Below the pieces are notes generated by a model. The model searched no databases and was not told the DNA's origin. It worked only from the letters and a program-made list of their open reading frames with translations. A stretch of DNA of 44,805 bases from Nitrospirota bacterium (GTDB taxonomy: Bacteria > Nitrospirota > Nitrospiria > Nitrospirales > UBA8639), in contig JAOTTP010000018.1 in the NCBI GenBank assembly GCA_029864405.1, positions 1-44,805 of the forward strand, written 5' to 3'. Shown here in pieces: positions 15,064 to 33,856 of this stretch (position 1 is its first letter; each line of letters begins with the position of its first letter). The position numbers and the translations under genes are program-made.

Positions 15064-15939
15064 ATGGGATTCGGACCGTTTGGAAGACAGCGAGGAATGG
15101 GCAGGCAACCCCGTGCACGCATGAGTTGGAAAATGCGGCTCATCCCGCTCGTTTTATTCGCGTTATACGGATTGTATTTTTACGTCTCGAATCAAGAAAT
15201 CGTTCCGTTGACGGGCCGATCGCAATTGGTGGACATAACCCACGAACAGGAAATGACCTTGGGGTATCAGTCGTATCAAGAAATTCTCAGCCAATCGCAG
15301 GTCATTCCAGACGGAGCAATTGTGGATTTGGTCAGAAACATCGGCCGCCGTCTGGCGAACGCGGCAGCCGATGTCGATCCCGGGTTCGAATGGGAATTTA
15401 ATGTCATTGAATCTCAACAGGCCAATGCGTTTGCGTTACCTGGGGGAAAAACAGCCGTATATACCGGGCTCATTCCGGTTGCGGAAACTCACAGTGGATT
15501 GGCGGTCGTCATGGGCCATGAAATCGCCCATGCCATCGCGCGTCATGGCGCCGAGCGCATGGCTCATCAAAAGTTAGTCCAGATGGGAACTCTGGCAGCC
15601 ACGGTGGCGGTAGGCGATATGGATTACGACACCCAGAGAATGGTCATGGGCGCGTTGGGAGTCGGCGCACAATATGGGGTGCTCCTCCCGTTTTCCCGAG
15701 ACCATGAATCCGAAGCCGACTATATGGGCTTGTTGTTTGTCGCTCGGGCTTGTTTCGATCCGACCGAAGCCCCGAGACTGTGGGAACGCATGGGAGAAGT
15801 CAGCAAAGGCAACCAACCAGCCGAATTCATGTCCACCCACCCCAGCCATGAGACCCGCATCCAACAATTTCAAGAATGGATGCCCGAAGCCCTCGCTCTC
15901 CGGGAAAAACACTGCGGCAAGTCGTCCCGCTCCTCATAG
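15064..15939 (+). CDS. M48-family metalloprotease (LoiP/BepA-like)
   Basis: A 291-residue zinc protease. One N-terminal membrane helix (about residues 24-41) anchors it. The HEIAH zinc motif is at His152-His156, and the third ligand Glu217 lies in ESEAD. The family signature FALPGG followed by YTGL is present just before the active site, and HPSHETR occurs near the C-terminus, as in YggG/LoiP-type envelope proteases. These enzymes degrade misfolded envelope proteins or help outer-membrane assembly. A GGAG at 15050 lies about 10 bases before the ATG. The gene is probably monocistronic; the minus-strand gene at 16282 is convergent. Confidence 0.9.
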   Translation: MGFGPFGRQRGMGRQPRARMSWKMRLIPLVLFALYGLYFYVSNQEIVPLTGRSQLVDITHEQEMTLGYQSYQEILSQSQVIPDGAIVDLVRNIGRRLANAAADVDPGFEWEFNVIESQQANAFALPGGKTAVYTGLIPVAETHSGLAVVMGHEIAHAIARHGAERMAHQKLVQMGTLAATVAVGDMDYDTQRMVMGALGVGAQYGVLLPFSRDHESEADYMGLLFVARACFDPTEAPRLWERMGEVSKGNQPAEFMSTHPSHETRIQQFQEWMPEALALREKHCGKSSRSS

Positions 15940-16039
15940 AAATCCTCTATCGAAGATATTCAAAATCCTTACGACTCGCCACGTTCTTGAGCCCGACGCC
16001 TGCCGTCTGGCCCAAGGAGGGACGCTCTCATCTGCTGAC

Positions 16040-16205
16040 GGGCCTTGTTTGAGCCCTTCGAGAAGACTCAGGACGGGCTCCGCGAGTTGGGCTGCCTCCT
16101 CAGGATCGCGTCCGCCCCATCCAATGTGGCCAGGGAGGGCGTCAATGGTTTTGGGCCCTTTTGCCGAAACAAAAGGGCCTCGCCTGCCGGGGCGAAACCC
16201 GGCAA
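16040..16205. repeat. Multi-hairpin intergenic element (REP-like)
   Basis: Three consecutive dyads in a non-coding interval: GAGCCC (16051-16056) / GGGCTC (16075-16080); GGCCCTTTT (16154-16162) / AAAAGGGCC (16171-16179) with an 8-base loop; and GCCGGG (16186-16191) / CCCGGC (16198-16203). The arrangement resembles dispersed palindromic repeats, but no second copy exists in this window. The middle hairpin could also work as a terminator between the convergent genes. Confidence 0.45.
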
Positions 16206-16281
16206 CGGTCGAACATGCCAATCACACCCAGGTAATAAAATGATGGGCTCAAAATTTGTTGGAAATTATTCAGAAATACTT

Positions 16282-16662
16282 TTAGGTGGAGGAGGAGCTA
16301 GGAGCTAAAAATTGAAGAGCCTCCGCAAACGTCCGATAATCTCGTTGGTCAATTTTTCCGCTGTCGAGAGGGTGCGACACCCAGGGCAACACTGATTGGA
16401 TTAAACTCCGATACGTGGTGAACCATTGGCAAGCTTTCTGATAGGCATCCTGAACCTCAGGATGATCCTGCCAGGGCTTGAGGTCAAGTTGATCGTTAAA
16501 GAGAATTTCCAGCCAAAACAACCGTCTGGCCCGAGGGACTTGAAGAATTTCCTCAACAGTATTTAACCCCGTATAGGCCGGTAAAATTTTGAGGAGATGA
16601 GATGAGGAAGAAGTCGAGTTATTCTGCATACCAGCAAGTGTAAGCCAATGGGCCCTTTCCAT
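16282..16662 (-). CDS. Small hypothetical protein
   Basis: A 126-residue protein, mostly helical by composition, with many Leu/Trp/Gln residues (RLFWLEILFND, QKACQWFTTYRSL) and no signal or membrane segment. I do not recognise the family. The ATG at 16662 is used; the frame extends to a TTG at 16698 and another ATG exists at 16629, with no clear ribosome binding site for any. The gene lies between the M48 protease (convergent) and the SIR2-like gene (divergent), at the edge of the accessory block. Confidence 0.5.
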   Translation of the reverse strand: MERAHWLTLAGMQNNSTSSSSHLLKILPAYTGLNTVEEILQVPRARRLFWLEILFNDQLDLKPWQDHPEVQDAYQKACQWFTTYRSLIQSVLPWVSHPLDSGKIDQRDYRTFAEALQFLAPSSSST

Positions 16663-16745
16663 CAAGCTCAAACTCTGGTTCCGATTGCAGAGGCACAACC
16701 GGATTTTCTCGTTCTGCTACATAATTCCTGCCGTAGGGAAAATGC

Positions 16746-16774
16746 TTGACATCGCAAAGGGTTGCATCTAGATT
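16746..16774 (+). promoter_or_regulatory. Sigma-70-like promoter of SIR2-like gene
   Basis: A perfect -35 TTGACA (16746-16751), 17-base spacer and -10 TAGATT (16769-16774, 4 of 6 consensus) lie 70 bases before the SIR2-like ATG. The ribosome binding site AAAAGGAG (16835-16842) is 3 bases from the ATG, which is rather close. Confidence 0.55.
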
Positions 16775-16845
16775 TTATTGCAACTGCCGCATACGATGAA
16801 CCATCTAGTCTTTCTACCGCAGTGTATCCCGCTTAAAAGGAGTGT

Positions 16846-17973
16846 ATGCGAGTCATCGTTCTAGGTGCCGGTGCCTCACACCATGCAGGCTACCCGCTTG
16901 CTTCAAGCCTTCTCACCAAAGTCGAGGAACATGTCAAATGTTCAAGTAGGGTGGACATCAAACGGGATTGGTCCAAATGGGTGAGTTTCCGAGACTTATG
17001 CCCGGATTATCTCCAATTGGTGGTGAGGAACAACAACCCCGAAGTCGTCTTTACCCTACCCTCTCTCCTTAGAATTGCTGCGAAGGCTGAGGATTCATAT
17101 CGGATTCAAAAAGCCTTCAACGGAGCCGAAATTTCCGAAGTGGAAGAGCAAGCAGGAATGCACGAACAGTATCACGATTCCCCCGGCCGCCAATTCCTTT
17201 CCCAAGCTAGTATTGCACTCACTCATCTTTCGCGCGCCCTCGATGGGTATTTCCTCGATCATCACATGGAAGACGGGCAACACCGTAGTAAATTTCGAAG
17301 AAAACCTCTCAGCAATCTTTTCTCTCCCCTTCAGCCTGGAGATGTCATTATCACTCTAAACTGGGATACCACCGCCGAAAGAACCCTTGCAGAAAACAAG
17401 AAATGGAGTCCACTCGATGGATACGGATTCTCTAAGAATCTCGACATTGATTCCCCAGCCAGCTCAAATTTACCTGTGCCAGACTATTTGGCTACGAGTG
17501 TTGTAAGGGTTCTCAAACTGCACGGTTCGGTTGGATGGTATACGAATGGCGATAGTGTATCCTTCGAAAATTCCACATATCTCAATGAGTTTGCCTATAA
17601 CCACGAAGATCGAACTGTGCTCCTAACCGATCCAGAATACTCCTATTCTCACGGTATTAACCAACTCCTTGTTACCCCTTCCTTTATCAAAAATCTTACG
17701 CATCCCATTCTTGTGAAGGTCTGGGGAGCTGCCCATTCAGCACTTGAACAGGCAGATGTCGTTGACGTTTGGGGTTACAGCTTGCCTGAGGCGGACGGCG
17801 CGGCAAGAGCATTGTTTCTTGGGTTAAAGACACGATTAAATTCCGGAAAGGTTCACGTGACCGTCCATGATCCCTGTAATGCCACTAGAGAGCGTTGGCT
17901 TCATTGCCTCGGGGATTTAATACATACTAAAGACGAAGGACTGAGTTCACTCTATAAAACAAAATTGGCGTAG
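16846..17973 (+). CDS. SIR2-like NAD-binding protein, putative defence NADase
   Basis: A 375-residue protein with SIR2-fold signatures: an N-terminal VLGAGAS dinucleotide-binding loop (residues 5-11), TLNWDT with Asn172, KLHGSVGW with His226, and a late DVWGYSLPEADGAAR segment. Asn and His are the positions used for NAD hydrolysis or deacylation in SIR2 proteins. This SIR2_2-like group is common in anti-phage systems, where it depletes NAD+. No additional effector domain is present. Base composition appears more A/T-rich than the flanking genes. A clear promoter precedes it. The small membrane peptide gene and the nuclease-helicase gene follow in the same direction, with gaps of 93 and 285 bases, so a shared operon is possible but not shown. 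The defence role is inferred from the family and context. Confidence 0.82.
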   Translation: MRVIVLGAGASHHAGYPLASSLLTKVEEHVKCSSRVDIKRDWSKWVSFRDLCPDYLQLVVRNNNPEVVFTLPSLLRIAAKAEDSYRIQKAFNGAEISEVEEQAGMHEQYHDSPGRQFLSQASIALTHLSRALDGYFLDHHMEDGQHRSKFRRKPLSNLFSPLQPGDVIITLNWDTTAERTLAENKKWSPLDGYGFSKNLDIDSPASSNLPVPDYLATSVVRVLKLHGSVGWYTNGDSVSFENSTYLNEFAYNHEDRTVLLTDPEYSYSHGINQLLVTPSFIKNLTHPILVKVWGAAHSALEQADVVDVWGYSLPEADGAARALFLGLKTRLNSGKVHVTVHDPCNATRERWLHCLGDLIHTKDEGLSSLYKTKLA

Positions 17974-18066
17974 CTACAATACGAACAGACAGGAATTAAA
18001 CAGATTTAATCCATTAGAGCAATAATTTTGGGATACGGGAAAGAGTAGTCCAACAGGCATACGAGT

Positions 18067-18312
18067 ATGAACACAGGTCAACTTATTGTTTTATGGTACG
18101 CAGGCCTGATGATTTCTGGGATCATGTTTTTCAACGCATTTAAATCGGAAGATTTTTGGTATCTAATGAGTGGAATTGCTGTTTTAGCGGGTGTATTAAT
18201 TTACACTCTCAAGGAACATCCTAAAGCAAACAAAGTTTTGGTATTTTTGTGGGTAGTAGGTCCCTTCATCCTTCTAGCGTTTTATTATCTGCGGCAAAAT
18301 CCAATTACCTGA
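18067..18312 (+). CDS. Small three-helix membrane protein
   Basis: An 81-residue very hydrophobic protein with three predicted membrane helices (about residues 5-24, 30-48 and 55-76) separated by short charged loops (FKSEDF, KEHPKANK). No family is recognised. The Shine-Dalgarno is weak (ACGAG). It sits between the SIR2-like and nuclease-helicase genes on the same strand. Small membrane proteins are often effectors or anchors in phage-defence operons, but that role is only contextual here. Confidence 0.6.
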   Translation: MNTGQLIVLWYAGLMISGIMFFNAFKSEDFWYLMSGIAVLAGVLIYTLKEHPKANKVLVFLWVVGPFILLAFYYLRQNPIT

Positions 18313-18597
18313 AAAAGAAATCAAAGAGGCACCCTCTGCGCCTCGACTATTATCAGCATCTTCAGTTTAATATGAAATTGCTTTACCTTATTCTTTCAGT
18401 CCAAATTAGACACCACTAATCAAGCCGATAAATTCCCAACTTCTCATTCCCTATCTTGGTGAAATATCCATCAATAAGCTAGATGGGAAATATTGTGGAG
18501 ATATCGAAGCGACGTCAAACTCCCTAGAGAAATAAAAAATCCGTGAGGGGGTGGAAAATTTTCCCTCCCCAAGGTTATCTGACTCTGAACCACATAC
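18313..18597. other. AT-rich gap before nuclease-helicase gene
   Basis: No gene, obvious terminator or consensus promoter is visible. The base composition is clearly more A/T-rich than the following gene, consistent with a junction between segments of different origin. Confidence 0.35.
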
Positions 18598-21500
18598 ATG
18601 AAAAAGGATCTCTCAGGCCAACTGGTGTTTTCGCCGAGCGATCTTATCCGCTATCTGGCCTCGCCGTTCGCGTCATGGATGGACCGATACGCCTTGGAGA
18701 ATCCCGGCGCCGTCACGCCTGATGCGGAAACCGAGGATGGACACCTGATCGCACAGACCGGCGCGCAGCACGAGCGCGCGGTGCTCGAAAAATTCAAATT
18801 GTCTGGTGCCAACGTGGTCGAGGTTCCAAAGACCGATCCTGGCGTTGCCCGGACAACGACCCTCTCCGCAATCAGCGCAAAAGTCCCCATTATTTATCAG
18901 GCGTTTTTGGAACATGGGCAGTTCGCAGGGTTTGCCGACTTTCTTCTGCTCGATGAATCGGGACACTACCAGGTGTGGGACACGAAACTGGCCCGTTCAC
19001 CCAAGCCCTATTATGCGATTCAGCTGTGCTGCTACTCGGACATGCTCGCCGCCGTCACCGGCGCTCCGATGCCCGAACATTTCGGGCTCATCCTTGGCAC
19101 AAAGGATCGAATTGAGTTTCGCCTCGAGAACTTCATCCACTACTACCGCCGCATCAAAACGAATTTTCTGACCATGCACAACGGCTTCACCGGGAACATC
19201 ACCGAACGCCCGGAACCACTTCCACGAGCTGATCACAGCCGTTGGACTTCCTATGCGGAGAAGTTCTTCCACGACACAGACCATCTCGTGCAGGTGGCGG
19301 GAATCACCGTGGGTCAGATCAAGAAGCTGAAGAAGGGTGGTATCGCCACAGTAGCCGATCTCTCAACGGCGTCAGGCACGTCCATACGCAAACTGACTGC
19401 CGACTCACTGGAAAAACTCGTGGCCCAGGCGCGACTTCAATGTCAGACCCGTGCCGACCGGATCGGGAATCCCGATGCCCCGCCGCGCTACGAAGTCCTG
19501 CCTTGCACCGGGGCGAATGGCGAACCCGTGGGCCTCGCCGCTCTTCCGCCCGATCATCCGGCAGATGTCTTCTTCGACATGGAGGGGTATCCGCTGGTTT
19601 CCGGCGGACTGGAATATCTGTTTGGGGTCTGCAGTCGGAACGGACAGCCGGATTCTTTTGAGTTCATGGACTGGTGGGCACATAACCGTGAGGAGGAACA
19701 ACTCGCATTCGAAGGCTTCGTGGATTGGGTCTTCAACCGATGGGAGAGTAACCCCGGCATGCACATCTACCATTACGCTCCCTACGAGGTCAGCGCGGTG
19801 CGACGGTTGAGCACCCGCCACGACACCCGTCAGGACGAGGTGGATGCGCTGCTCCGGAACGAGGTGTTCGTTGATCTCTTCCAAATCGTCCGCCACGGCC
19901 TGCGCTTCGGCGAGGACAGCTACTCCCTTAAGACGGTGGAACGCCTCTACCGACCGAAACGCGCCACTGAGGTCGCCACGGCGGCTGACTCGATCGTTCA
20001 ATACGCCCGATGGCTCGAAAGCCAACAGCCGGATAATTGGAACCACAGCCCCATCCTGAAAAACATCCGCGACTACAACCAGGACGATTGCACATCCACG
20101 AGTGAGTTGCTGCAGTGGTTAAAGACGGTGGTGGTCGACCATCAGATAACTGCTACACACGCAAATTCCGAATTGGCTCCGTCGGCGCCAAAAGAATTAC
20201 CGCCGGAAGTCGTCGCGCGATTGGACACCGCTGCAAAGCTTCGCACGCAGGGCGATGCCATCTCCGGGGTTCTCGCTGATTTAATTGATTTTCATCGCCG
20301 GGAAGAAAAGCCCATGTGGTGGCGCCTGTTTGACCGCGCCAAGGCGACGTCCGAAGAACTCCGCGATGAGCCGGCCTGCATTGAGGGCATTCGAGCCATC
20401 GGATCGCCTACGCCCGAAAAACTTTCGCTCGTGCAAACTTACCGTTTCGATCCGTCACAGGAGTGCAAACTTGCTGCCGGTGACAGATCAAAAGTAATGT
20501 TCACCTACAATCTGAATGCGAAGTTCACGCTCACGGAGCTGGATGCGTCCAAGGGCAGTCTTGGCCTCAAGATCGGCAAGAAGGGTTTGACCGAGAAATG
20601 TGCAGGCGCGTTCCCTCAAGAGGGTTCACTACTTCCGGACGAGCATGTCTCAGCGACGGCCATTCAGCTTGCGCTGACGGAAGTGGTTGCCAGGCATCTA
20701 TCCAACAACCTCGATGCCCCCGTGGCCGCGCTGTTGAACCGTGTGCCGCCCGTAACACCTCTACAACATGCTGATGAAACGCCAACCGAAGCCGCCAAAC
20801 GGATTGCTGGGTCGATGGCCGGTGGATGCCTGGTCATCCAGGGGCCTCCAGGCACGGGAAAGACGTTCACCGCCTCACAGGTTATTACCTCACTTCTCGC
20901 TTCCGGCAAGAAGGTCGGTGTCGCCTCCAACAGCCACAAGGCCGTGACCAATCTTCTCACCGCCTGCGGCGACGCCACCAAAGAGAGCGGCTCTCAGCTC
21001 CACGGAATGAAAGTCGGAGGTGACGCCGAGGATCCCTTGTTTACCTGCAATCCCGGTTTGCACTACGTCCAAGACACTGGCACCGCACACCAGGCTTACA
21101 CCGGTGGCGTTGTCGGCGGAACGGCCTGGCTCTTTACCCGACCCGAGTGGGAAGGCGCGCTCGATTTCTTGTTCATCGATGAAGCGGGGCAGGTTGCCCT
21201 GGCCAACGCCATTGCGATGGCTCGATGCGCGAAGAACCTTGTTCTCCTCGGTGACCAGATGCAGCTCGAACAACCCGTGCAAGGCTCCCATCCCGGCGAT
21301 GCCGGGCTTTCCGCCCTGCAGTACGCCCTCAAGGACATGGACGCCAGCCAACCCGACTCCCCTATCATGCATGCCGTGGTACCTCCGGACTATGGGCTTT
21401 TTCTCGGCGAGTCCCGCCGGATGCATCCGGCAGTCTGCCGCTTCATCTCGGAGAGCATGTATGAGGGCCGCCTTGGGTCACATTCCGACTGCGCCCGGCA

Positions 21501-22026
21501 GAAGATCGTGGTCCCGCCCGGTGCCAACGGCCTCATCACCTGCGAAAGCGGGATCCTCTTCAGCGGCGTCGAGCACGATGGCAACATCCAGCAGAGCGAT
21601 GAGGAGATTGAACGGGTCACGGCGATTTACCACGAGCTGCATGGACGTCTCTACACCGACAAGGATGGCATCACCAAGCCACTGGCACTAGAGGACTTTC
21701 TTTTCATCGCCCCCTATAACGCCCAAGTTCGCGCGCTGCAGGTCGCCCTCCCCGACGACGCACGCATCGGAAGTGTTGACAAGTTTCAAGGGCAGGAAGC
21801 CCCGGTCTGCATCCTGTCACTCTGCTCCAGTTACGGTGAATACGGTTCACGCGGACTGGCCTTCATTCTCGACCGCAACCGTGTAAATGTGGCGATCTCC
21901 CGCGCAAAATGCATGGCAGTGGTGGTTGCTGATCCCCGTATTGCCGGCACCCCTCCCGGCTCCCTGGACGACATGAAACTCATCAATCTGTTTTGCAAAT
22001 TAACCGATGCCTCCGCCTCGACATGA
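18598..22026 (+). CDS. RecB-like nuclease / RNase H-like exonuclease / SF1 helicase fusion (TM0106 family)
   Basis: A 1142-residue protein with three parts. (1) The N-terminal PD-(D/E)xK nuclease of the TM0106 RecB-like family has GFADFLL with Asp114, WDTKLA with Asp128 and Lys130, then a QLCCYSDML helix. (2) The middle DEDD/RNase_H_2-like exonuclease has FFDMEG with Asp327 and Glu329, YHYAPYE, and a YNQDDC segment near residue 495. (3) The C-terminal SF1 DNA2/NAM7-type helicase has Walker A GPPGTGKT with Lys755, Walker B FIDEAGQ with Asp861, LLGDQMQL, ESRRMHPAV, DKFQGQEAP and NVAISRAK. All key residues are intact, suggesting coupled unwinding and degradation of nucleic acid. The gene is G/C-richer than the SIR2 gene upstream. 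Immunity is a contextual inference; DNA repair is an alternative. Confidence 0.9.
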   Translation: MKKDLSGQLVFSPSDLIRYLASPFASWMDRYALENPGAVTPDAETEDGHLIAQTGAQHERAVLEKFKLSGANVVEVPKTDPGVARTTTLSAISAKVPIIYQAFLEHGQFAGFADFLLLDESGHYQVWDTKLARSPKPYYAIQLCCYSDMLAAVTGAPMPEHFGLILGTKDRIEFRLENFIHYYRRIKTNFLTMHNGFTGNITERPEPLPRADHSRWTSYAEKFFHDTDHLVQVAGITVGQIKKLKKGGIATVADLSTASGTSIRKLTADSLEKLVAQARLQCQTRADRIGNPDAPPRYEVLPCTGANGEPVGLAALPPDHPADVFFDMEGYPLVSGGLEYLFGVCSRNGQPDSFEFMDWWAHNREEEQLAFEGFVDWVFNRWESNPGMHIYHYAPYEVSAVRRLSTRHDTRQDEVDALLRNEVFVDLFQIVRHGLRFGEDSYSLKTVERLYRPKRATEVATAADSIVQYARWLESQQPDNWNHSPILKNIRDYNQDDCTSTSELLQWLKTVVVDHQITATHANSELAPSAPKELPPEVVARLDTAAKLRTQGDAISGVLADLIDFHRREEKPMWWRLFDRAKATSEELRDEPACIEGIRAIGSPTPEKLSLVQTYRFDPSQECKLAAGDRSKVMFTYNLNAKFTLTELDASKGSLGLKIGKKGLTEKCAGAFPQEGSLLPDEHVSATAIQLALTEVVARHLSNNLDAPVAALLNRVPPVTPLQHADETPTEAAKRIAGSMAGGCLVIQGPPGTGKTFTASQVITSLLASGKKVGVASNSHKAVTNLLTACGDATKESGSQLHGMKVGGDAEDPLFTCNPGLHYVQDTGTAHQAYTGGVVGGTAWLFTRPEWEGALDFLFIDEAGQVALANAIAMARCAKNLVLLGDQMQLEQPVQGSHPGDAGLSALQYALKDMDASQPDSPIMHAVVPPDYGLFLGESRRMHPAVCRFISESMYEGRLGSHSDCARQKIVVPPGANGLITCESGILFSGVEHDGNIQQSDEEIERVTAIYHELHGRLYTDKDGITKPLALEDFLFIAPYNAQVRALQVALPDDARIGSVDKFQGQEAPVCILSLCSSYGEYGSRGLAFILDRNRVNVAISRAKCMAVVVADPRIAGTPPGSLDDMKLINLFCKLTDASAST

Positions 22027-22447
22027 ACCCATAACCGCCGCTATCTGCATCAAGACTCTTAAGAACCTATCTGAAAAGAACGCCCGTTTTGAAACTGAGA
22101 TTTTCAGGGAGGAAGCTTACGACAAACAGAATCAACAGAAGCAGTGGAATGCCTATAAAACCCTTACGCCCAGGAGCCTGTCTGACTTTGGGGATCGATA
22201 GCGAAGTCCGACAGGCTCCTAGAGCCATCGACCATATTGAAGGGAAAACCATGGGAGGAAAAGTATCTAATTCGATATATGGAGTATCTAAACAGATACA
22301 TTTCGTCACCCATTCATTGTGATTTCTATAATCCTGGAAGCGAATTTTTCTGATGCATCGCAAGCAAGTTGGCTCATTCCTACCAATCTCCTCACGTTAG
22401 GCCTCTGACTTGCACTTTCATCGAGTATCGAATCTGAAATTTACAGT
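22027..22447. other. Non-coding stretch between nuclease-helicase gene and IS110
   Basis: No supportable gene. It holds a short inverted repeat CTGAAAA (22071-22077) / TTTTCAG (22101-22107) and the 49-base palindrome described separately, then about 220 bases without recognisable signals up to the start of the IS110 leader. Confidence 0.4.
22172..22220. repeat. 49-base imperfect palindrome
   Basis: Arms AGGAGCCTGTCTGACTT (22172-22188) and AAGTCCGACAGGCTCCT (22204-22220) are complementary at 16 of 17 positions with a 15-base loop. There is no T-run. It could be a terminator of the nuclease-helicase transcript, a REP-like repeat or a mobile-element remnant. It is the only copy in the window. 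Confidence 0.65.
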
Positions 22448-22719
22448 ACTACACCATTGATGGTGGTAGTGGGCCCTTCGACAGACTTGTATGGTGTTTT
22501 GGTGCGCATTCTTGAGAAGCTACGAGGAGCCGGGGTGGAGGGACATCGACTGGCATCTGCCGCACGGCGGACAGACTTCCTGAGAACTCTCCCACCCACA
22601 CCACAAACGTCGATGAGGAATCTCGCGGCAGGGACCCTGACCGCCGATTTACCCGCAAGCTCACGTCGGTGTGTGCCACCCCAGCGTCATTCATTTACTT
22701 CTTGGAGGAGGGTACGATC
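22448..22719 (+). ncRNA. Candidate IS110 bridge-RNA region
   Basis: IS110-group elements carry a structured RNA in the non-coding end upstream of the transposase gene that guides target and donor recognition. This 270-base leader is non-coding and rich in self-complementarity. A hairpin ACTACACCAT (22448-22457) / ATGGTGGTAGT (22460-22470) with one bulge is followed by GGGTGG (about 22533-22538) able to pair with CCACCC (about 22592-22597), and by a GCCG/CGGC hairpin near 22559-22568. ATGGTGT (22491-22497) is complementary to ACACCAT in the first hairpin arm. CCTGAGA (22579-22585) is complementary to TCTCAGG (23683-23689) just beyond the transposase gene, as a donor guide might be, but matches of 7 bases can arise by chance. 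The boundaries are not determined. Confidence 0.4.
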
Positions 22720-23673
22720 ATGCAAACCTTTCTGAACGTTGGCGTGGATGTGGCCAAAGACGCCGTCGTGGTGGCGTGTGCCGAGCAACGTTTTCCGGTC
22801 CAGAGTGTTCCCAATCAGCGGGCCCCGTTGCGGGCTTGGCTGAAGTCGCTCCCCGCCGGTAGCCGCATCGGCTTGGAATCCACCGGTGCCTACCACGAAT
22901 TACTGGCTGACCTGGCGCAGGCCCAAGGTTATACCGTCTTCCTGCTCAATCCCTTAGAGACTCGGCACTACGCCAAGGCCATGGGCACTCGGGCCAAAAC
23001 CGACCGAGTGGATGCGGAATTGATTGCGCGGCTCATCGCACAAGAGCACACGCGCTTGCGGGCCTACACGCCCCCTACGGCCAACCAACGCAAGCTCGAT
23101 CGGCTGATTCGACGGCGGGCCACGATCGTCCGCCTCAAAGGCACGCTCAAGCTGACGATGGACAATCTGGGCGGCTTTGCCGCCGAACTCAAGGCGGTGA
23201 TGGGCAAACTGGATGCCTTGATTGCCAAGATTGATGCCGCCATGGCCGCGCTGGCCGCCTGTTCGCCCCAACACCAGGAAGCACAACAGCGGGTAGAAAC
23301 CATTGTGGGAGTCGGGCCCGTGGTGGGCATCAGCCTGACCAATACGTTAGAGCGCGTACCGTTCCGCAAGGCGGATGCGTTCGTGGCCTTCATTGGCTTG
23401 GATCCGCGGGCGAATGACTCGGGACACAAAGCCGGGCGCCGACGGTTGTCCAAACGCGGCCCCGCCGAGTTGCGCCGCTTGCTGTTTAACGCCGCGATGT
23501 CGGCCATCAAAACCAAAGTCTGGAAACCGATCTACGAGTCTTACCGCACTCAAGGCTGGAGCACGACTGCCTCATTGGTGATCATCGCTCGTAAAATCGC
23601 CCGAGCCGCCTGGTCTATTCATCATTACCACACAACCTTTAATCCAGAACGGATTACAAAATGCTTGGCATAA
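22720..23673 (+). CDS. IS110-family transposase (DEDD recombinase)
   Basis: A 317-residue transposase. The N-terminal DEDD RuvC-like domain begins VGVDVAKDAVVVA, carries a GLESTGAYHE segment and a TDRVDAELIARL segment, and the C-terminal transposase_20 domain contains VGVGPVVGISL, a FIGLDPRANDSG stretch, GRRRLSKRGPAELR and a final catalytic-Ser-type region. Length matches complete IS110-family enzymes. The ATG at 22720 has GGAGGAGGG (22704-22712) at good spacing. The frame remains open 17 codons further upstream, but those residues are not part of the family. The gene appears intact, so the element may be active. Confidence 0.93.
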   Translation: MQTFLNVGVDVAKDAVVVACAEQRFPVQSVPNQRAPLRAWLKSLPAGSRIGLESTGAYHELLADLAQAQGYTVFLLNPLETRHYAKAMGTRAKTDRVDAELIARLIAQEHTRLRAYTPPTANQRKLDRLIRRRATIVRLKGTLKLTMDNLGGFAAELKAVMGKLDALIAKIDAAMAALAACSPQHQEAQQRVETIVGVGPVVGISLTNTLERVPFRKADAFVAFIGLDPRANDSGHKAGRRRLSKRGPAELRRLLFNAAMSAIKTKVWKPIYESYRTQGWSTTASLVIIARKIARAAWSIHHYHTTFNPERITKCLA

Positions 23674-23875
23674 ACCATAGAATCTCAGGAAAAGCGAGTG
23701 TTTTCCCATGCCCTCTTTCTCATAAACGCCTAGTAAATGGTTCCATCCGAGAAACGACCTGAGCAAAGGGTAACCCCAATAACTCACAGAGGAGTCACCC
23801 CTGGAGATGACCCCAATGAATCTCATAGAATGTGGTACTGGCCTTCTTGAGGTAAGCACCAAAAGGTAAGGCATC
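23674..23875. other. Gap between IS110 and haem operon
   Basis: It contains the probable short right end of the IS and the upstream region of the haem operon. I see no strong promoter match. AAAAGGTAAGG lies just before the ATG at 23876. Confidence 0.3.
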
Positions 23876-26335
23876 ATGAGGAAAAATATTCTGCTCATTT
23901 CGATCATGATGGTGGGACTGTGGGCCATCCATTCGCCTGGCTTCCCAAAAGATTCATCCTATTCTTCCAGCTCACACCCTTCCCGCCCTGATGTGATCTC
24001 CCTTTCTTGTCTTCGCAATCTCGATCATACCCTGACTCCCTCACAATTAGTCGGCAAATATATCTGGTTTTGTGCCACCGCAGGGAATGCCCGATTCTTT
24101 TCCTATACCTATCCGCAACGGTTAGGAATTCTCATTGATTGGTATCGAGTACTCAACACCGATGACCGGGATGATCGTTTTGAAAATTGGGGTCTGATCA
24201 ATGATCCGGACTGTTGCAAGCCCGGCGACCCTGATTGCCCCGCTCGCCACCTCACGTATGATGATACATATGGATTTGACTGGTGCCCCGGCGATGAAGC
24301 GTTACTTCCCTTTGTCGGTAAACCGTTGACAGCTGAAGGCCCGGCCTATCGAGATCCGGGGTGTGACCTTCAAGATGCTCCTGGCGATTCACTCGGTGCA
24401 TTCTCCCCTACACAGGATCATCGCCAATCTTCTTGCGATTTAGCCTTTGGCACTTCAACGGGAGCCTTAGGATTTCGAAAATTTCCCAATCCTCGCTTTG
24501 ATCGACAAGCCTGGGTCACGGTTAATGGGGAGGCTGGAACGTGGAAGGGGTACCAAGCACGATTGAATGACGCCTCCATTGAACCACCATTTTTAATCGG
24601 AATGGCCTGTGGGGCCTGTCACATTGCTTTTGATCCTCTTCATCCCCCTACCAATCCAGCCCACCCGGAATGGAAAAATATTTCGGGAACCATTGGGAAT
24701 CAATACGGAAGGATGTCCCAGATATTTACTTCCGGAATGCCGAAGAACAGCTTAGAGCAGCAAGTATTTGCTTACGCCAGGCCCGGAGTGGTGGACACGT
24801 CGGCGATTCCGACCGATTCCATCAATAATCCCGGGACGATGAGCGCCATTATCAATCTTCCCTCTCGCCCCCTCTTTCTGGAAACCGTCACCAAATGGCG
24901 AAAAGTCAGCCAATGTTCCAAGGACTCGCATCCAGATACGTGCTGGTGTGAATTTCCAGATAAATGTTGGATACGAGGAACCCAACAAGAATGGGTCCCA
25001 CACATTCTTAAAGGCGGGGAAGATAGTATCGGGCTCGAAGAAGCGTTACAACGCGTCTACATTAATATCGGCAGTTGTGGGGAAGAGGCCTGGGTCAACC
25101 ATCTGACTGATCCCTTCCAGCTTGATCCACATCAACGGAATTTTGGACAAACGCCCTTCCAGATAGCGCAAGCCAGACGCGATTGCCCTCATTTTCGAGC
25201 CATTGAGGACCGGCGGTCAGATTTAGCGAATTTCCTTCTCACGGCCCGGCCAACCGATCTGTACGTAGCCAGAGGGTTAACGGACCCAGAGGATCTAGAA
25301 GAGCAATTGGATCAGGAGTTTGGAAAGGACGCGGTCAAAAAAGGACGAGATCTTTTTCGAACGCATTGTACGAGTTGTCACTCCAGCCAGAAGATTCCAG
25401 CAGAACTCATCCAGGACTTCCGACAACCTTCTCCCAATGTCCTGCACCAGGACATTCGTCTTGATTGGCTCGGAAAGGATACCCTGATCCCCGCGACCCA
25501 GGTGGGAACGCATTGGTCACGCGCCCTCCATACCAATCATATGACCGGACATATCTGGGAAGAATTCAACGCAGATTCTCTTCGCCAGCAAAAGCCTCCT
25601 CCTAGTTTTCCAGATCCCGTGGACGGGGGAAGGGGCTATTACCGCAATATCTCCTTGTTGAGTGTGTGGGCACATGCACCCTTTTTGCACAATAATGCGA
25701 TTGGACCTGAATTGTGCGGACAGCGTGGCAAAGATTCGACTGGGAAATGGAAAGACGCTCTTTATCGGTCCCCCTATGTCACGATTCCCCCTCAAAGCGA
25801 TCAAGACCCCATTCCCGTGCCGCACCCACAGGACTGCTGGCCGTTTGATCCCAGCGTGGAAGGCCGCTATCAACTCTTCAAAGCGTCCATGGAGAGCCTG
25901 CTCAATCCCGAGAAGCGGATCCCAAAAGTCACGTTGCTCGATGAGGACATCCCCTTGCCTGTCCTTCCAAAACTGAACATTCATCCCCTGACCCGAATGC
26001 CAATAGCCTTCACTCTCTCTTTCTCCAAGGGGTTCCCCGCCGCGAAACTGGGAAATTTTAACTATAAACTGTTCATCCAGGATCTCAGGGAATTTTTGAA
26101 GAACCCTGATTCTCCGATCATTCAGGATATCGCCTCTGAATTCCACACCATGAAAAACGCGCTCACTGAGAACCCTCACCAAATCCCGATCCACACGATT
26201 CGAAAAATTTTCAAAGGGAAGTTGCGGCGATATCTCAGCAGCTCTGCCCTCATTGAAAATGAAGGCCATCCTTTTGGTGGAACACTTTCTTCTGAGGAGA
26301 AAGGCTACCTCACCGCGTTTTTGGCTACGCTGTGA
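23876..26335 (+). CDS. RoxA-like di-haem c-type cytochrome / peroxidase-family protein
   Basis: An 819-residue exported protein. A signal peptide (about residues 4-22) is followed by two c-type haem sites: CGACH at 245-249 and CTSCH at 498-502. Segments around them, such as HPEWKNISGTIGNQYGR, then ARPGVVDTS, and the late SVWAHAPFLHNN, resemble the di-haem peroxidase/oxygenase superfamily that includes MauG and the rubber oxygenase RoxA. RoxA itself is about 650 residues with two CxxCH sites about 200 apart, so this is a longer relative. It should be periplasmic and could be a peroxidase or dioxygenase; the substrate is unknown. It is the first gene of a tight operon (next start 12 bases after its stop). 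Confidence 0.8.
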   Translation: MRKNILLISIMMVGLWAIHSPGFPKDSSYSSSSHPSRPDVISLSCLRNLDHTLTPSQLVGKYIWFCATAGNARFFSYTYPQRLGILIDWYRVLNTDDRDDRFENWGLINDPDCCKPGDPDCPARHLTYDDTYGFDWCPGDEALLPFVGKPLTAEGPAYRDPGCDLQDAPGDSLGAFSPTQDHRQSSCDLAFGTSTGALGFRKFPNPRFDRQAWVTVNGEAGTWKGYQARLNDASIEPPFLIGMACGACHIAFDPLHPPTNPAHPEWKNISGTIGNQYGRMSQIFTSGMPKNSLEQQVFAYARPGVVDTSAIPTDSINNPGTMSAIINLPSRPLFLETVTKWRKVSQCSKDSHPDTCWCEFPDKCWIRGTQQEWVPHILKGGEDSIGLEEALQRVYINIGSCGEEAWVNHLTDPFQLDPHQRNFGQTPFQIAQARRDCPHFRAIEDRRSDLANFLLTARPTDLYVARGLTDPEDLEEQLDQEFGKDAVKKGRDLFRTHCTSCHSSQKIPAELIQDFRQPSPNVLHQDIRLDWLGKDTLIPATQVGTHWSRALHTNHMTGHIWEEFNADSLRQQKPPPSFPDPVDGGRGYYRNISLLSVWAHAPFLHNNAIGPELCGQRGKDSTGKWKDALYRSPYVTIPPQSDQDPIPVPHPQDCWPFDPSVEGRYQLFKASMESLLNPEKRIPKVTLLDEDIPLPVLPKLNIHPLTRMPIAFTLSFSKGFPAAKLGNFNYKLFIQDLREFLKNPDSPIIQDIASEFHTMKNALTENPHQIPIHTIRKIFKGKLRRYLSSSALIENEGHPFGGTLSSEEKGYLTAFLATL

Positions 26336-26347
26336 TTGTCCTGTTGA

Positions 26348-27316
26348 ATGCGAGAACGTATGACTCAAGATCACCTCATCCAAAAAGTTTTTTGGTTCGT
26401 TGTGGCGTTAAATATGTGGGGAATAGGAATGTCGGGCCCTGCCCTCACCGCTCAAAGTTATGCACAAGCTTCTGCCATGCAACCCGGTACATCCTCTCCT
26501 TCAGACATTTATTTCGCCCCTGTGGCTGAGGGGGACGCTCCCTCAATAGATTTTGCTCAGCTTGACCATCAGCATCCGCTCACCCTCACTCAACGGATTC
26601 ATCTCACACCTGAGTTTTTGCAAACTCTATCACAAGAACATCTGGATCAAGTTTATGCTCGCTTAACGGCCGGCACTATTCCTGATGGAGCCCTCGATGG
26701 CATTGCTTTTTTACCACAACGACAGCGGGATCCTTTTGAGGTGGCTACACAAATACTAGGCAAGATGACTTCGCCTCACACTGAAAAATATTTCACACTC
26801 ATTCAAAACTCCTGGACAGAGCTTTGGAAAGGGAAAGTTTTCGATCGTAGTCAAAAAAGCCTACAAAACCGCGTCAATCTCACGCTGATCCACAGCATGG
26901 CCCCTCTCCTAGGCGAACAGTTTGCCCAACGGGTTCAACAGCTCCCAAAGGACTCTTTGTTGTTTCCAGCTAAAGTGTACTGCGGGCAAAGCAAGCTCGA
27001 TAGTCGACGAGAGTCAATTATCCTAGACTATGCGTACACAGATGACCTCCCTCACTATCGAGAAGGGATTGATTATTTGGCCGGTCGCAACGGGTTGGAA
27101 ATTCGCGACGAACTTCGCATGCTTCGGCCAGGATTTTACTTGGGACGAGCCTATATGGGGAAATTCTTTTTGATCAATTTCACTTTAATGAATCATGCCA
27201 TCGCTCAGGATTGGGAACGACAAGTCACACGGCAGAACTCGCTCTCCACCACTCAGCCGGTCTTTCAAGAAGAATGCAGGACCGGGAAACACGACGCCAA
27301 ACACCCAGGCGGGTAA
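26348..27316 (+). CDS. Exported protein of unknown function in haem operon
   Basis: A 322-residue protein with an N-terminal signal-like helix (about residues 14-35). The C-terminal half contains a conserved-looking stretch (VYCGQSKLDSRRESIILDYA, then REGIDYLAGRNGLEIRDE, and GRAYMGKFFLINFTL), which suggests a compact beta-rich domain. I recognise no catalytic motif and no haem site. The ATG at 26360 is an alternative start. It lies 12 bases after the RoxA-like gene and 24 bases before the second di-haem gene, so it very likely works with them, perhaps as a binding or accessory protein. Confidence 0.75.
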   Translation: MRERMTQDHLIQKVFWFVVALNMWGIGMSGPALTAQSYAQASAMQPGTSSPSDIYFAPVAEGDAPSIDFAQLDHQHPLTLTQRIHLTPEFLQTLSQEHLDQVYARLTAGTIPDGALDGIAFLPQRQRDPFEVATQILGKMTSPHTEKYFTLIQNSWTELWKGKVFDRSQKSLQNRVNLTLIHSMAPLLGEQFAQRVQQLPKDSLLFPAKVYCGQSKLDSRRESIILDYAYTDDLPHYREGIDYLAGRNGLEIRDELRMLRPGFYLGRAYMGKFFLINFTLMNHAIAQDWERQVTRQNSLSTTQPVFQEECRTGKHDAKHPGG

Positions 27317-27340
27317 TCACCATTTCCAGAGTACACGTCA

Positions 27341-29722
27341 ATGGAGATTCAGAGAGTCCAGACAACCCGATTTTCCTCCTGGAAGGCACATGCCGGTGTC
27401 TTCCTCATTGCCTGTGTTCTGATCCTGGAGCTTCTCCCCATTTTCGGGGTGAGTGAGGACAAGCGTGTGTGGGCCAATGCTCACGCCTCGGAAGATTTTT
27501 CCCGGCCAACCTGGGTTGTCGACCCGACCAATCCTGGAGAAGATACCCCGCCAGTGGGGCGTTCACTATTTGATCTTCTCGTTTCCCGACAGGATGGAGA
27601 ACACCTGATCTATGATGTCCCATTTCCCTTTTCCGCGTTGCTTAAAAAAATTGAGACGACCGTCGGCTCAGAGAGATCGTCTTCACTCTTTACGGTGCTC
27701 CTGGTTCCATTCGGTCGCTCGCTTCAACGTCATGCCGCTCAACCTGACTTTTTCCGTTTCCCCCGAGTCCTCGCCACCGTTGCGACCGAAGCAGAGACTG
27801 ACACCACGTTCCCGAGTCTTTATCTCAAAGACAGATTATTTTTGGCCTATCAGGAGAAAGCCGCGATTGTCGAGGTCATTAGTTACAATGAAGCCGCAGG
27901 TCGGTTTGAATTTCAAATTGTCCGCAATTTCCAACCGGGGACATCGCCTGAAGTACTTTACGCCAATCGAAAAGTTTGTACTGTCTGCCATCAAAATCAC
28001 GCACCCATCTTCCCTGATCCGTTGTGGAATGAAACAAATGCCAACCCCGCCATCCATGCGTTCTTGCAATCAGCCCAAAGCCCATTTTCCTCTCTTCCCC
28101 ATGGAGTGGATATGGCTTCCGCATTTGACGTCGCGACAGATCGAGCCAATGAGCTACTCGCCTATGACAAGCTCTGGCAAGAAGGATGTGACGCTCCGGT
28201 CTTCCCTCTGCAATCGATCGAATGTCGTGGCAACCTCTTTATCCGTGCGCTCCAACAACGTCTCAGTGGGAGCAGCCCCCTTCTTACGCGTTCGTCTTCT
28301 CAACAATATGCGCTCCTCTCCCCACTTCCACAATTATGGAAAGCACGATGGCCCCATGGCTTATGGATTCCCAATCCGAATATACCTAATCGTGTACTGG
28401 CAGATTTCCTCCCTACTATTGCTCCAGAGGCTTCCGGGCTCTCCCCTTCCCTGAGACCTATGAATAGCCACGCGTTCCTTCATCCCTTGATGGATCCAGC
28501 CACTCCACGACCAGCTCTGACCACCTGGACCTTTTCGCCTCCTGACGATACCTTCCCTTTGATTCAGGTGATGACCGGTCTGTCGAATCTTTTCTCCGCG
28601 GCTGACATCCAACAACTCGATCAGCAACTGGTGAACCTTGGCCAACAGCAGCACAGACCAGCCATGGACTTTCATAGCGATTGCCACACATCCATTCATA
28701 CAAATTCTGAGAGCGGGGTTCATCTGAAGATGCAGTGCCACCCCTCCCCCACCTCCCAGGTCGAGCCGGGGCAATCCTTTTCCCTCACCGGTCGTGTATC
28801 GTTTGACCAGGGCCAATTCCAAACGGGCACGCTTTCTCATTTACAGATCGGCCAGGGAGAAGACCACGCCCATGTGACCATCCAAGACGCGTCGTTCCGG
28901 GAGGAAGGCACCCGAGGGCTGTTGACCTTGCGTATGACTCAATCTCCTTCAGGACTTCACGCCCGGACCAACGATGGCAATCTCATTCAATCGATTGATC
29001 TCACTTGGGACATGCCTCTCACCGAAACGGGAGTCTCTCAGGAGAGTACCGTCGTTAGCAGAGGGACGCTCAAGACTCTCTCTGACTTTTCCCTGGTGCA
29101 GGAGGCGGTGCAGACAATGCAAGAGGAAACGCTCAAGTGGCAAACTGATGTCTTAGGCCATGTACCCTTTCGCCGGGGAAAACTGCTCGCAACCCTCTTT
29201 CAGTATCTTGGTCTTCCTGAAGGAACCTGGTGTTGCGAATCCCAGGCGAATTTCCCACCCGTGGTACTGGAGGCCCATCCTTCCCACATCAACATTGCCG
29301 ATAGTACGGACACCCTCTCGACCCCATTTCACCTTTTAGATAAATATTGTGGAGACTGTCATCATGGGGTGGATCCTGCTCCCCCGAATTTTTTACATGG
29401 TTCTATAGATCAGATAGGGGAAAATCTGGCACAGTGTGCCGAACGAATGTATGTTCGCCTCAGCATGTGGGATGTCGCTCCGGCTCAACGCGGCCTATCC
29501 CCTATGCCTCCAGCCACGGCATTACCTCGATTGACCACTGGATCCAGCCATTGGCCACAGCAAGAGGAGGCCCGGTTGCTCAAACAATATTTCCTCAAAC
29601 TCCTAGAAGAGCAAGGCAAATCCCCGCCTTCAATAGCGGACCTGAATCCCCCACGCTATGATGGGCTCTCTCAGTGCCTTTCTCCCTCAAATCTCATGGT
29701 GCCAGATTCACCTTCTTCGTAA
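27341..29722 (+). CDS. Exported di-haem c-type cytochrome protein
   Basis: A 793-residue protein with an N-terminal membrane or signal helix (about residues 17-36) and two CxxCH haem sites far apart: CTVCH at residues 213-217 and CGDCH at 670-674. The region around the first reads KVCTVCHQNHAPIFPDPLW; the second reads DKYCGDCHHGVDPAPPNF. The roughly 450-residue middle has no signature I recognise. It is probably periplasmic and may be the electron-transfer partner of the first gene's product. It is the third gene of the operon, followed 7 bases later by the sensor kinase gene. Confidence 0.78.
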   Translation: MEIQRVQTTRFSSWKAHAGVFLIACVLILELLPIFGVSEDKRVWANAHASEDFSRPTWVVDPTNPGEDTPPVGRSLFDLLVSRQDGEHLIYDVPFPFSALLKKIETTVGSERSSSLFTVLLVPFGRSLQRHAAQPDFFRFPRVLATVATEAETDTTFPSLYLKDRLFLAYQEKAAIVEVISYNEAAGRFEFQIVRNFQPGTSPEVLYANRKVCTVCHQNHAPIFPDPLWNETNANPAIHAFLQSAQSPFSSLPHGVDMASAFDVATDRANELLAYDKLWQEGCDAPVFPLQSIECRGNLFIRALQQRLSGSSPLLTRSSSQQYALLSPLPQLWKARWPHGLWIPNPNIPNRVLADFLPTIAPEASGLSPSLRPMNSHAFLHPLMDPATPRPALTTWTFSPPDDTFPLIQVMTGLSNLFSAADIQQLDQQLVNLGQQQHRPAMDFHSDCHTSIHTNSESGVHLKMQCHPSPTSQVEPGQSFSLTGRVSFDQGQFQTGTLSHLQIGQGEDHAHVTIQDASFREEGTRGLLTLRMTQSPSGLHARTNDGNLIQSIDLTWDMPLTETGVSQESTVVSRGTLKTLSDFSLVQEAVQTMQEETLKWQTDVLGHVPFRRGKLLATLFQYLGLPEGTWCCESQANFPPVVLEAHPSHINIADSTDTLSTPFHLLDKYCGDCHHGVDPAPPNFLHGSIDQIGENLAQCAERMYVRLSMWDVAPAQRGLSPMPPATALPRLTTGSSHWPQQEEARLLKQYFLKLLEEQGKSPPSIADLNPPRYDGLSQCLSPSNLMVPDSPSS

Positions 29723-29729
29723 CCAACCC

Positions 29730-32450: not shown

Positions 32451-32926
32451 TCTTTTTCCAGCCTATCGACCCTTCCACACTGCCTATTAGGATTTGGAAG
32501 GATTCTGAACCCGACAAGGCCCAATCTTTTGGCACCCCAGCTAAGGACTTGTCCTTCCTAAAATCCAACGTTGCTGAAGCCGCTTAAATACGCTAGATTC
32601 CCCTCCAACAAAACCACTTTCAAATTTTCGCTCCTTAAAAATAATTCTTCCTTACCCAACCGCCCATTTAAAGAAATCTCTTGGTCATAGTAAGGAGCCA
32701 GACCCAGCAGTGGACCCCGAGGAACTCAACCCAGTTAAAGAGGAGAATATCTTGAAGATTTTGCTTCACAGCATTTGAGATTATCCAGACAGGCCACGCA
32801 TACGATAGAATTGCCTCTGAGAACTTGTTGGCTGAGGGGACATTCCCATTGTGAATTCCAATAAATTACGATGATCGTGCGCTTCATGTTTTGACGTATA
32901 ATTCTCTATTTTCATGAGAGGAAGAC
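32451..32926. other. Intergenic stretch with a possible promoter
   Basis: No gene is supportable. A perfect -10-like TATAAT (32897-32902) lies 24 bases before the GTG at 32927, but no convincing -35 is at the right distance. GAGAGGAAGA provides a ribosome binding site directly before the start. Confidence 0.4.
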
Positions 32927-33856
32927 GTGCCCAACACCTTAGCCCACATCGGAGTGCAAGGCGTTCTGAATCAGATTGTTAAACCTGGGATCGACCCCAA
33001 ATTGGTGTGCCTGGGTTGCTTGCTTCCAGACATCCCATGGATCTTCCAAAGAGTCCTGATTGGAATCTTGCCGGGAAGCGATCCTTATACCATTCGACTC
33101 TACTGTATCGCTCAAGCATCCTTATTCGTCACGTTGGTGTTATGCGGGGCCTTGGCCTTCCTTTCAAAAACGCCTAGAACAGTCTTCCTGATTCTCGGAC
33201 TCAACGTTCTCCTTCATCTCGTGCTTGATGCGCTTCAAACCAAATGGGCCAATGGCGTCCATCTCTTTGCCCCACTATCATGGGACTTATGGAATGTGGG
33301 GTTATTTTGGCCGGAAAGTCTTCCAACCTATATCATGACAGGGAGTGGCTTATTCTATATAGGATGGCAATGGCGAAAGGGGATATCACAGCCTCTCCCA
33401 ATCTCGCCCTTGTCACCTTTCAAAGTGGCGATATCGGCGTCGTTACTCATGTTGTATTTCACGTTCCCTTTGGTCCTTTTAGAAGGACCTCGAAACGCCA
33501 ATAACCATTTCGTCCAAACTCTTGAAGAAACCGAGACCAGGCCGGGGCGTCTTCTGGAACTGGATCGGCCATCTTATATGAAAACTTCCGCAGGAGATAT
33601 GATTGGGTTATTCAATGGTGAAAAAATCAGCACCACTCAAGAGATTCTGGATCACTCAGCTATCGTTTCGGTTCGTGGACGTTTTGTGACGCCCACCCAA
33701 TTAGAGGTTCTTGAATTTCATGAACATTCCAGCTGGTTCCGGGATATAAGCACCTACCTGGGCATCCTTCTACTCTTTGGCATGTGGTTGGGGGCTTTTC
33801 TTAAACAAGGTATCCTCCCCTATTCACACAAATCCAAAAACCTTTCAAATAAGTAA
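32927..33856 (+). CDS. Membrane protein, metal-dependent-hydrolase-like (YdjM/DUF457-like)
   Basis: A 309-residue integral membrane protein starting at GTG after GAGAGGAAGA. The first residues (MPNTLAHIG), the early PDIPW and the HLVLDALQTKW segment, followed by FAPLSWDLWNVGLFWPE, fit the YdjM/LexA-regulated membrane metal-dependent hydrolase group, where His and Asp residues on helices bind metal. About four helices lie in the first 170 residues, one near 175-195 and one near 275-295, with a soluble beta-rich stretch of about 80 residues between the last two. Substrate unknown. The gene seems monocistronic. Confidence 0.65.
   Translation: MPNTLAHIGVQGVLNQIVKPGIDPKLVCLGCLLPDIPWIFQRVLIGILPGSDPYTIRLYCIAQASLFVTLVLCGALAFLSKTPRTVFLILGLNVLLHLVLDALQTKWANGVHLFAPLSWDLWNVGLFWPESLPTYIMTGSGLFYIGWQWRKGISQPLPISPLSPFKVAISASLLMLYFTFPLVLLEGPRNANNHFVQTLEETETRPGRLLELDRPSYMKTSAGDMIGLFNGEKISTTQEILDHSAIVSVRGRFVTPTQLEVLEFHEHSSWFRDISTYLGILLLFGMWLGAFLKQGILPYSHKSKNLSNK

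Follow-up and report, generated by a model that had tools for sequence, protein, structure and literature searches.

The 44,805-nt contig JAOTTP010000018.1 of assembly GCA_029864405.1 (positions 1 to 44,805 of the forward strand; hereafter the window), from a Nitrospirota bacterium of the family UBA8639, carries a gene for a TM0106-type nuclease-helicase preceded by a short variable slot, which in this genome holds a SIR2-like gene and an 81-amino-acid (aa) open reading frame (ORF). The best explanation, to which we give a probability of about 0.7, is a slot for the exchange of defence genes: in the window's clade of Nitrospira the nuclease-helicase would stay in one place, and the stretch separating its gene from a conserved promoter would be swapped for mostly anti-phage cassettes. 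Seen directly in the comparison with relatives are a shared left edge, a conserved promoter, eight differing contents, remnants of restriction-modification (R-M) genes, co-oriented cargoes and purifying selection. The window is one contig of a genome assembly that is 66% complete. According to the available text of PMC12342949, family UBA8639 falls within lineage IV of Nitrospira, from which we infer that the window's organism belongs there; "defense" in that text refers to stress, not phages. The features of the slot and its flanks are as follows.

15064–15939, plus strand: M48 peptidase gene, the conserved left neighbour (Pfam Peptidase_M48, 6.3e-38), with an 88–90% identical orthologue at seven relatives.
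15993–16206, no strand assigned: dispersed repeat with many copies per genome, between the left anchor and the slot; most left-flank matches fall here.
16282–16698, minus strand: 138-aa ORF, the conserved left anchor, with no Pfam match, lying within the blocks aligned to relatives.
16746–16774, plus strand: sigma-70-like promoter TTGACA-N17-TAGATT at the left edge of the slot, conserved at orthologous sites.
16797–18577, no strand assigned: variable slot, delimited by alignment breaks, with other genes or absent in seven relatives.
16846–17973, plus strand: SIR2-like protein of 375 aa, this strain's cargo (PADLOC SIR2 match, 6.5e-8; conserved residues).
18067–18312, plus strand: 81-aa hydrophobic ORF with 45–46% identity to the first 74 residues of a membrane protein of 202 aa in other Nitrospira.
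18598–22026, plus strand: 1142-aa nuclease-exonuclease-helicase, the right anchor of the slot (TIGR03491, Pfam domains, residue conservation).

Nine of 20 genomes of the same genus, counting that of the window, have a helicase orthologue with 86–89% identity. At eight of these sites the whole path between left flank and helicase was readable, and the ninth helicase genome, G011, was not readable (G handles denote genomes of relatives, L handles helicase-bearing loci). DNA identity is 73–90% where the left flank (M48 gene, repeat and minus-strand ORF) and the helicase are aligned, and the window's cargo lies unaligned between them: alignments to relatives stop at 16648–16797 and restart at 18577–18598. 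The G+C content is 47.7% for the SIR2 gene, 37.4% for the small ORF and 58.4% for the helicase, against 52.2% for the window.

By gene calls and family scans, the content differs at all eight comparable sites. The window carries SIR2 and the small ORF; G016 a different SIR2-like protein with HerA (2.5e-152) and a short HsdR remnant; G013 a type I R-M system (HsdR, KilA-N/PDC-S22, HsdM-S and DUF3644/PDC-S19); G015 the start of HsdR, as a remnant, and an OLD/AriA/GajA-like ATPase; G002 a 430-aa TIR_2 protein alone (L045:1693–2985); G009 an HsdR remnant only (103 aligned residues, 77% identity); and G017 only a pair of ORFs, 121 and 97 aa long (L042:8646–9346), neither with a Pfam or PADLOC match. 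The slot of G018 is empty. A defence-family gene was present in six of the seven occupied slots, and the seven cargoes all share the orientation of the helicase. The distance between promoter and helicase is shortest in G018 (83 bp) and longest in G013 (7691 bp). The N-terminal HsdR remnants in G009, G015 and G016 suggest that the slot probably once housed a type I R-M system. No integrase or transposase was found within the slots seen, and homologous recombination in the conserved flanks would exchange the cassettes.

The left edge coincides with the promoter. A first-pass annotation of the sequence had placed a promoter upstream of the SIR2 gene, and the site at 16746–16774 proved to be conserved at orthologous positions: the 29-nt block anchored on TTGACA has a mean pairwise ungapped identity of 78% across seven sites, compared with 42–60% to its left and 37% then 29% from 20 bp past the −10 box, so that the promoter is a local maximum of conservation. 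Past the promoter, identity between the window and the other sites falls to 26%, and the window rejoins its relatives 0–21 bp upstream of the helicase start. A consensus scan of the 300 bp before the helicase gave no sigma-70-like site in seven of the eight genomes, the window having a weak one; transcription of the helicase from the left promoter is therefore favoured, but not proven. No terminator-like site was found on the plus strand of the window between 16774 and 18598. Cargo and helicase may thus both be read from the shared promoter.

The helicase itself was probably gained by an ancestor of the nine genomes, because other members of the genus have M48 sites without it. The M48 gene is directly followed by another conserved gene in G001 and G007, and two desaturase-like genes stand between these two in G006; G008 has the minus-strand ORF with other genes and no helicase, and the M48 match is at a contig end in G004, G005 and G012. 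Copies of the helicase at about 55–77% identity in Verrucomicrobia, Planctomycetota and other phyla suggest horizontal transfer between phyla, a reading that calls for caution because most of these genomes were assembled from metagenomes. Further relatives were found in plasmid records (153 matches, all below 60% identity) and in viral contigs (one, L212, at 47% identity).

Family searches agreed with the first-pass annotation that the gene encodes a TM0106-type nuclease/exonuclease/helicase fusion. TIGR03491 (TM0106 nuclease) matched at 4.4e-61, with 207.2 bits against a curated cut-off of 97.45, and Pfam recognised RNase_H_2 (1.6e-23) together with AAA_11/AAA_12. Among 66 full-length homologues, the PD-(D/E)XK residues D114, D128 and K130 are kept in 66, 62 and 62, respectively; each of the exonuclease residues D327, E329, D426, Y493 and D497 is kept in all 66; and so are K755, E862, R941 and R1102 of the superfamily 1 (SF1) helicase, with D861 kept in 65. 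The Y-x3-D spacing, here Y493-x3-D497, marks an exonuclease of the DEDDy type. An AlphaFold2 model built from 54 sequences had a mean predicted local distance difference test score (pLDDT) of 89, and its Foldseek matches were IGHMBP2/UPF1 helicases and Dna2, the latter (5ean) with an E value of 4.3e-24 over 1250 alignment columns at 12% identity. The protein is assigned as Dna2-like with an added DEDDy exonuclease. A literature search returned no study of a defence role for this nuclease-helicase, and the term TM0106 gave unrelated papers only.

Ratios of non-synonymous to synonymous substitution rates (dN/dS) for the helicase were 0.117–0.176 in ten pairs, the highest being that of G016 with G009; the M48 gene gave 0.043–0.097 over the same pairs. 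These values indicate that the helicase is under purifying selection but is less constrained than a core gene. The gene is intact both behind the empty slot of G018 and behind that of G009, in which only a remnant is left, and the pairs that include G018 (0.122–0.147) are no higher than the rest. The nuclease-helicase may therefore be self-sufficient, unwinding and degrading foreign or broken DNA.

The SIR2-like identity of the present cargo held, on a weak family match. The PADLOC match supports it, as do N172 and H226, which are invariant; the Pfam SIR2_2 score is below the cut-off (18.2 versus 24.5 bits), and NCBIfam gave no match for this protein. The residue numbers that the annotation had proposed for mutation, Asn172 and His226 here and Lys755 and Asp128 in the fusion, are correct. 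The full-length protein was found only in its own genome. Six of 59 relatives matched, the other five partially at 27–34%, and a search of 395 genomes of the phylum gave 25 matches, its own included, the rest again partial at 25–38%. There was no match in plasmids or phages, and pattern scans of viral and genome contigs, a method limited to close relatives, yielded no confirmed SIR2 relative. A profile was built with eight phylum relatives, out of the 24 matching genomes besides the window's own, plus one more relative; these nine align at 21–26% identity, and G7, A8, G9, N172, D174, H226, G227 and the GYS at 310–312 are invariant in all ten sequences.

A direct search of the PDB with the window's SIR2 sequence gave no match. 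The profile was repeated without the SIR2 of G016, which could pull it towards SIR2-HerA, and the nearest solved chains were then 8yhx, 8w9l and 8j4u (3.8e-11 to 1.2e-7), with DSR2 and ThsA chains matching weakly. We take 8yhx, 8w9l and 8j4u to be from SIR2-HerA complexes. NAD+ depletion is known from the SIR2 defence proteins DSR2 (PMC11087589) and Nezha (PMC11559045). The window's protein is probably an NAD+-consuming effector; as an independent cargo, it would most likely consume NAD+ or a related nucleotide on sensing infection.

The second slot gene had been described as a three-helix membrane peptide; its hydropathy plot shows three peaks. Homologues cover the 81-aa ORF at 45–46% identity in two of 198 genomes besides the window's, so that it is probably a real coding sequence. 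The matching part is residues 1–74 of a 202-aa membrane protein that lies beside ordinary genes in two other Nitrospirales genomes. PADLOC and NCBIfam gave no match for the ORF, there is no reason to count it as a part of the defence, and it may be a passenger.

The first-pass annotation had combined SIR2, peptide and nuclease-helicase into one putative anti-phage system and proposed checking whether the three families co-occur. The gene calls held: the SIR2-like gene, the 81-aa ORF, the fusion gene and the IS110 element were recovered at the same positions, the three slot-region genes all on the plus strand. Its view of the locus as one of defence type is also borne out, by SIR2-like, R-M, TIR, SIR2-HerA and OLD-type genes in the same slot of relatives. 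The grouping into one system did not hold, since the helicase is at the same place in seven relatives without this SIR2 or peptide, and the trio was found nowhere else within the searches made, an outcome that the annotation itself had named as refuting its proposal. Neither the SIR2 nor the peptide had a BLAST match in 80 helicase loci of other genomes; a home-made SIR2 profile run on 91 loci found only the unrelated SIR2 of G016 (twice, in L041 and L082); and the surroundings of the peptide homologues held no SIR2 nearby. A PF13289 search placed SIR2_2 somewhere in 16 of 40 genomes holding a related helicase. Positions relative to the helicase could be compared only in the single-contig chromosomes L103 and L104, where the SIR2 genes are far from it, and the local SIR2 profile was used for the others.

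Elsewhere, the helicase recurs beside restriction genes. In L076 (Nitrospira; L076:201–12726) it stands in a run of a PLD/HKD-SNF2 helicase, this nuclease-helicase, DUF4391, a type III Mod and Res. The Verrucomicrobiales locus L081 repeats this order with matching genes, L063 matches as far as Mod, where the contig ends, and L102 (Chloroflexi) has the upstream PLD/HKD-SNF2 gene only, its helicase being cut by the contig end. Judged from gene order, this recurring arrangement is possibly a compound R-M system. HsdR starts 177–197 bp downstream of the helicase in L061, L091 and L069 (in L069 at a contig end), and L070 has a ZorB-like gene downstream. A set of R-M queries gave a hit within 4 kb in nine of 76 non-genus loci and one at 6–10 kb (480,161 versus 333,413 bases available), a count in which seven of the ten queries were taken after inspection from L061, L076 and L077, themselves among the nine, and which includes a weak PLD-SNF2 match (L114) and L069, the contig of G040. 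The link to R-M systems rests on the recurring gene orders, because a neutral count of first neighbours showed no enrichment. The nuclease-helicase may have stood ancestrally alongside restriction enzymes. HTH/WYL-type regulator-like genes were seen upstream of the helicase, mostly by eye, in L061, L065, L091, L075 and L078; Pfam WYL matched two of 34 first-neighbour genes.

Several observations weigh against an exchange slot. In the neutral count, which compared the first gene on each side with far genes under naive gene calling, there was no defence enrichment beside the helicase at 17 loci of other genomes (34 near versus 33 far; PADLOC families, 50 versus 67). The sample of slots is one small clade, the slot of G017 has no recognisable defence gene, and the SIR2 family match in the window is weak; a single-sequence AlphaFold2 model of that protein was unusable (pLDDT 34.3) and was not used. 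The promoter-like site of G018 has a 19-nt spacer. Five relatives (G002, G009, G013, G015 and G016) share a leader of up to about 270 bp before the helicase, which the window and G018 do not have. A stretch of 98–273 bp is common to nine of the ten pairs among these five, and G017 shares 34–41 bp with three of them. The right edge has thus moved and is not one fixed point, and the helicase could have a promoter of its own, of a different type.

Two other accounts take the constancy of the helicase differently. It could be the sensor or effector of a modular plug-in operon, serving whichever cargo is swapped in (SIR2, TIR, R-M, SIR2-HerA or OLD), as might be expected from seven cargoes that are all co-oriented between the conserved promoter and the helicase, and from the same helicase family lying within R-M gene runs elsewhere. 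Against strict dependence speak the helicases that are intact and similarly constrained at the empty slot of G018 and the remnant slot of G009. Type I R-M systems are known to work without this helicase, and so is SIR2-HerA (PMC11559045). We regard this account as unlikely; cooperation between cargo and helicase is possible, but less likely than an independent cargo. Alternatively, the protein could be an ordinary DNA-repair helicase at a site that merely tolerates insertions, so that its link to defence is positional. The Dna2/IGHMBP2-like fold and the unenriched neighbours at 17 other loci would fit this. The patchy presence within the genus, the copies in other phyla that point to horizontal transfer, the recurrent R-M partners and the defence-family genes in six of seven occupied slots make it doubtful. 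The three-gene system of the first-pass annotation, in which the nuclease-helicase detects phage DNA, SIR2 depletes NAD+ and the membrane peptide assists, agrees with the adjacency, common direction and shared promoter of the genes in the window, but is very improbable given that the trio was found nowhere else, that no close SIR2 relative appeared in the 395 phylum genomes, plasmids, phages or pattern scans of viral and genome contigs, and that the intact helicases of G018 and G009 argue against licensing of SIR2 by the nuclease-helicase.

Three further features lie downstream of the helicase.

22172–22220, no strand assigned: inverted repeat with 17-nt arms and a 15-nt loop, between the helicase and IS110.
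22669–23673, plus strand: IS110 transposase (NF033542, 4.3e-53), outside the slot.
32927–33856, plus strand: next conserved downstream gene, about 270 bp after the helicase in G009 and separated from it here by 10.9 kb of other genes.

The palindromic repeat and the adjoining IS110 element had both been noted in the first-pass annotation and are present. IS110 as a part of the system was rejected, as it is downstream of the helicase and outside the slot, and relatives have no IS110 there. The intervening DNA (22027–32927, about 10.9 kb) contains IS110 and cytochrome-like and sensor-kinase-like genes; an 819-aa gene at 23876–26335 is present in one of seven same-genus genomes searched. On the left, a query with the left flank had 46–74 matches per genome in seven of seven same-genus genomes, most of them on the repeat of about 214 bp (15993–16206). 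The window contains no tRNA that could have been targeted for insertion, no Rfam match and no tandem repeats.

Among known arrangements, the exchange slot most resembles the core defence hotspots cDHS1 and cDHS2 of Pseudomonas aeruginosa, which the available text of PMC10250203 describes as conserved flanking genes with varying defence systems between them, not governed by any one mobile element; transfer by way of the conserved flanks is also proposed there, and the right flank of cDHS1 is a DUF4011 gene. NCBIfam lists a DUF4011 anti-phage protein, Hhe. DUF4011 proteins include helicases. The Nitrospira slot is similar in its conserved flanks at eight readable sites (the M48 gene and the 16282–16698 ORF on the left, the helicase on the right), all in one clade, and in its eight different contents, with a defence-family match in six of seven occupied slots. 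It differs from cDHS1 and cDHS2 in being small (about 0 to 7.6 kb) and directly between one promoter and one nuclease-helicase, and in the patchy distribution of that flanking gene. The best reading is that the locus is a variant of a known core defence hotspot, with protection by its cargoes predicted from their families.

The genes themselves resemble parts of several systems. SIR2-HerA (Nezha) is approached in two ways, as G016 carries a SIR2-like gene with HerA in the same slot and profiles of the window's SIR2 group best match 8yhx, 8w9l and 8j4u; however, the window's ORFs at 16846–22026 are SIR2, the 81-aa ORF and the helicase, none of which matches HerA. Thoeris pairs a TIR-domain ThsB with a SIR2-domain ThsA, whereas the three window genes have no TIR match. 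DSR1/DSR2 are proteins of about 1000 aa with a long C-terminal part (the length is that of solved DSR2 chains), compared with 375 aa here. The invariant N172 and H226 are shared with the SIR2-like NADase group, unlike the sub-threshold Pfam SIR2_2 score. The nuclease-helicase resembles TM0106-family RecB-like nuclease/helicases through TIGR03491 and eukaryotic Dna2 through its match to 5ean, but is set apart from both by the DEDDy exonuclease (RNase_H_2) that lies between its nuclease and helicase parts; identity to the solved IGHMBP2/Dna2 chains is at most 20%. Its helicase part also matches MkoA (1.2e-35) and MkoC (4.9e-26) of Mokosh in PADLOC. Mokosh is defined by a helicase with a kinase partner or a fused PLD nuclease, and the Pfam scan found no kinase or PLD domain here.

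These comparisons point to a short, well-bounded address in nitrite-oxidising Nitrospira at which each genome carries a different defence cassette, next to a widely transferred Dna2-like nuclease-helicase that has restriction genes of type I and of type III among its neighbours. This raises the question of whether one constant helicase serves many swapped partners. If it does, its DNA-processing signal or activity would serve every swapped module, whether restriction enzyme, SIR2/TIR NADase, SIR2-HerA or OLD nuclease. The slot is a promising site in which to search for new defences, and the two orphan ORFs of G017 and the diverged SIR2 of the window are good candidates.

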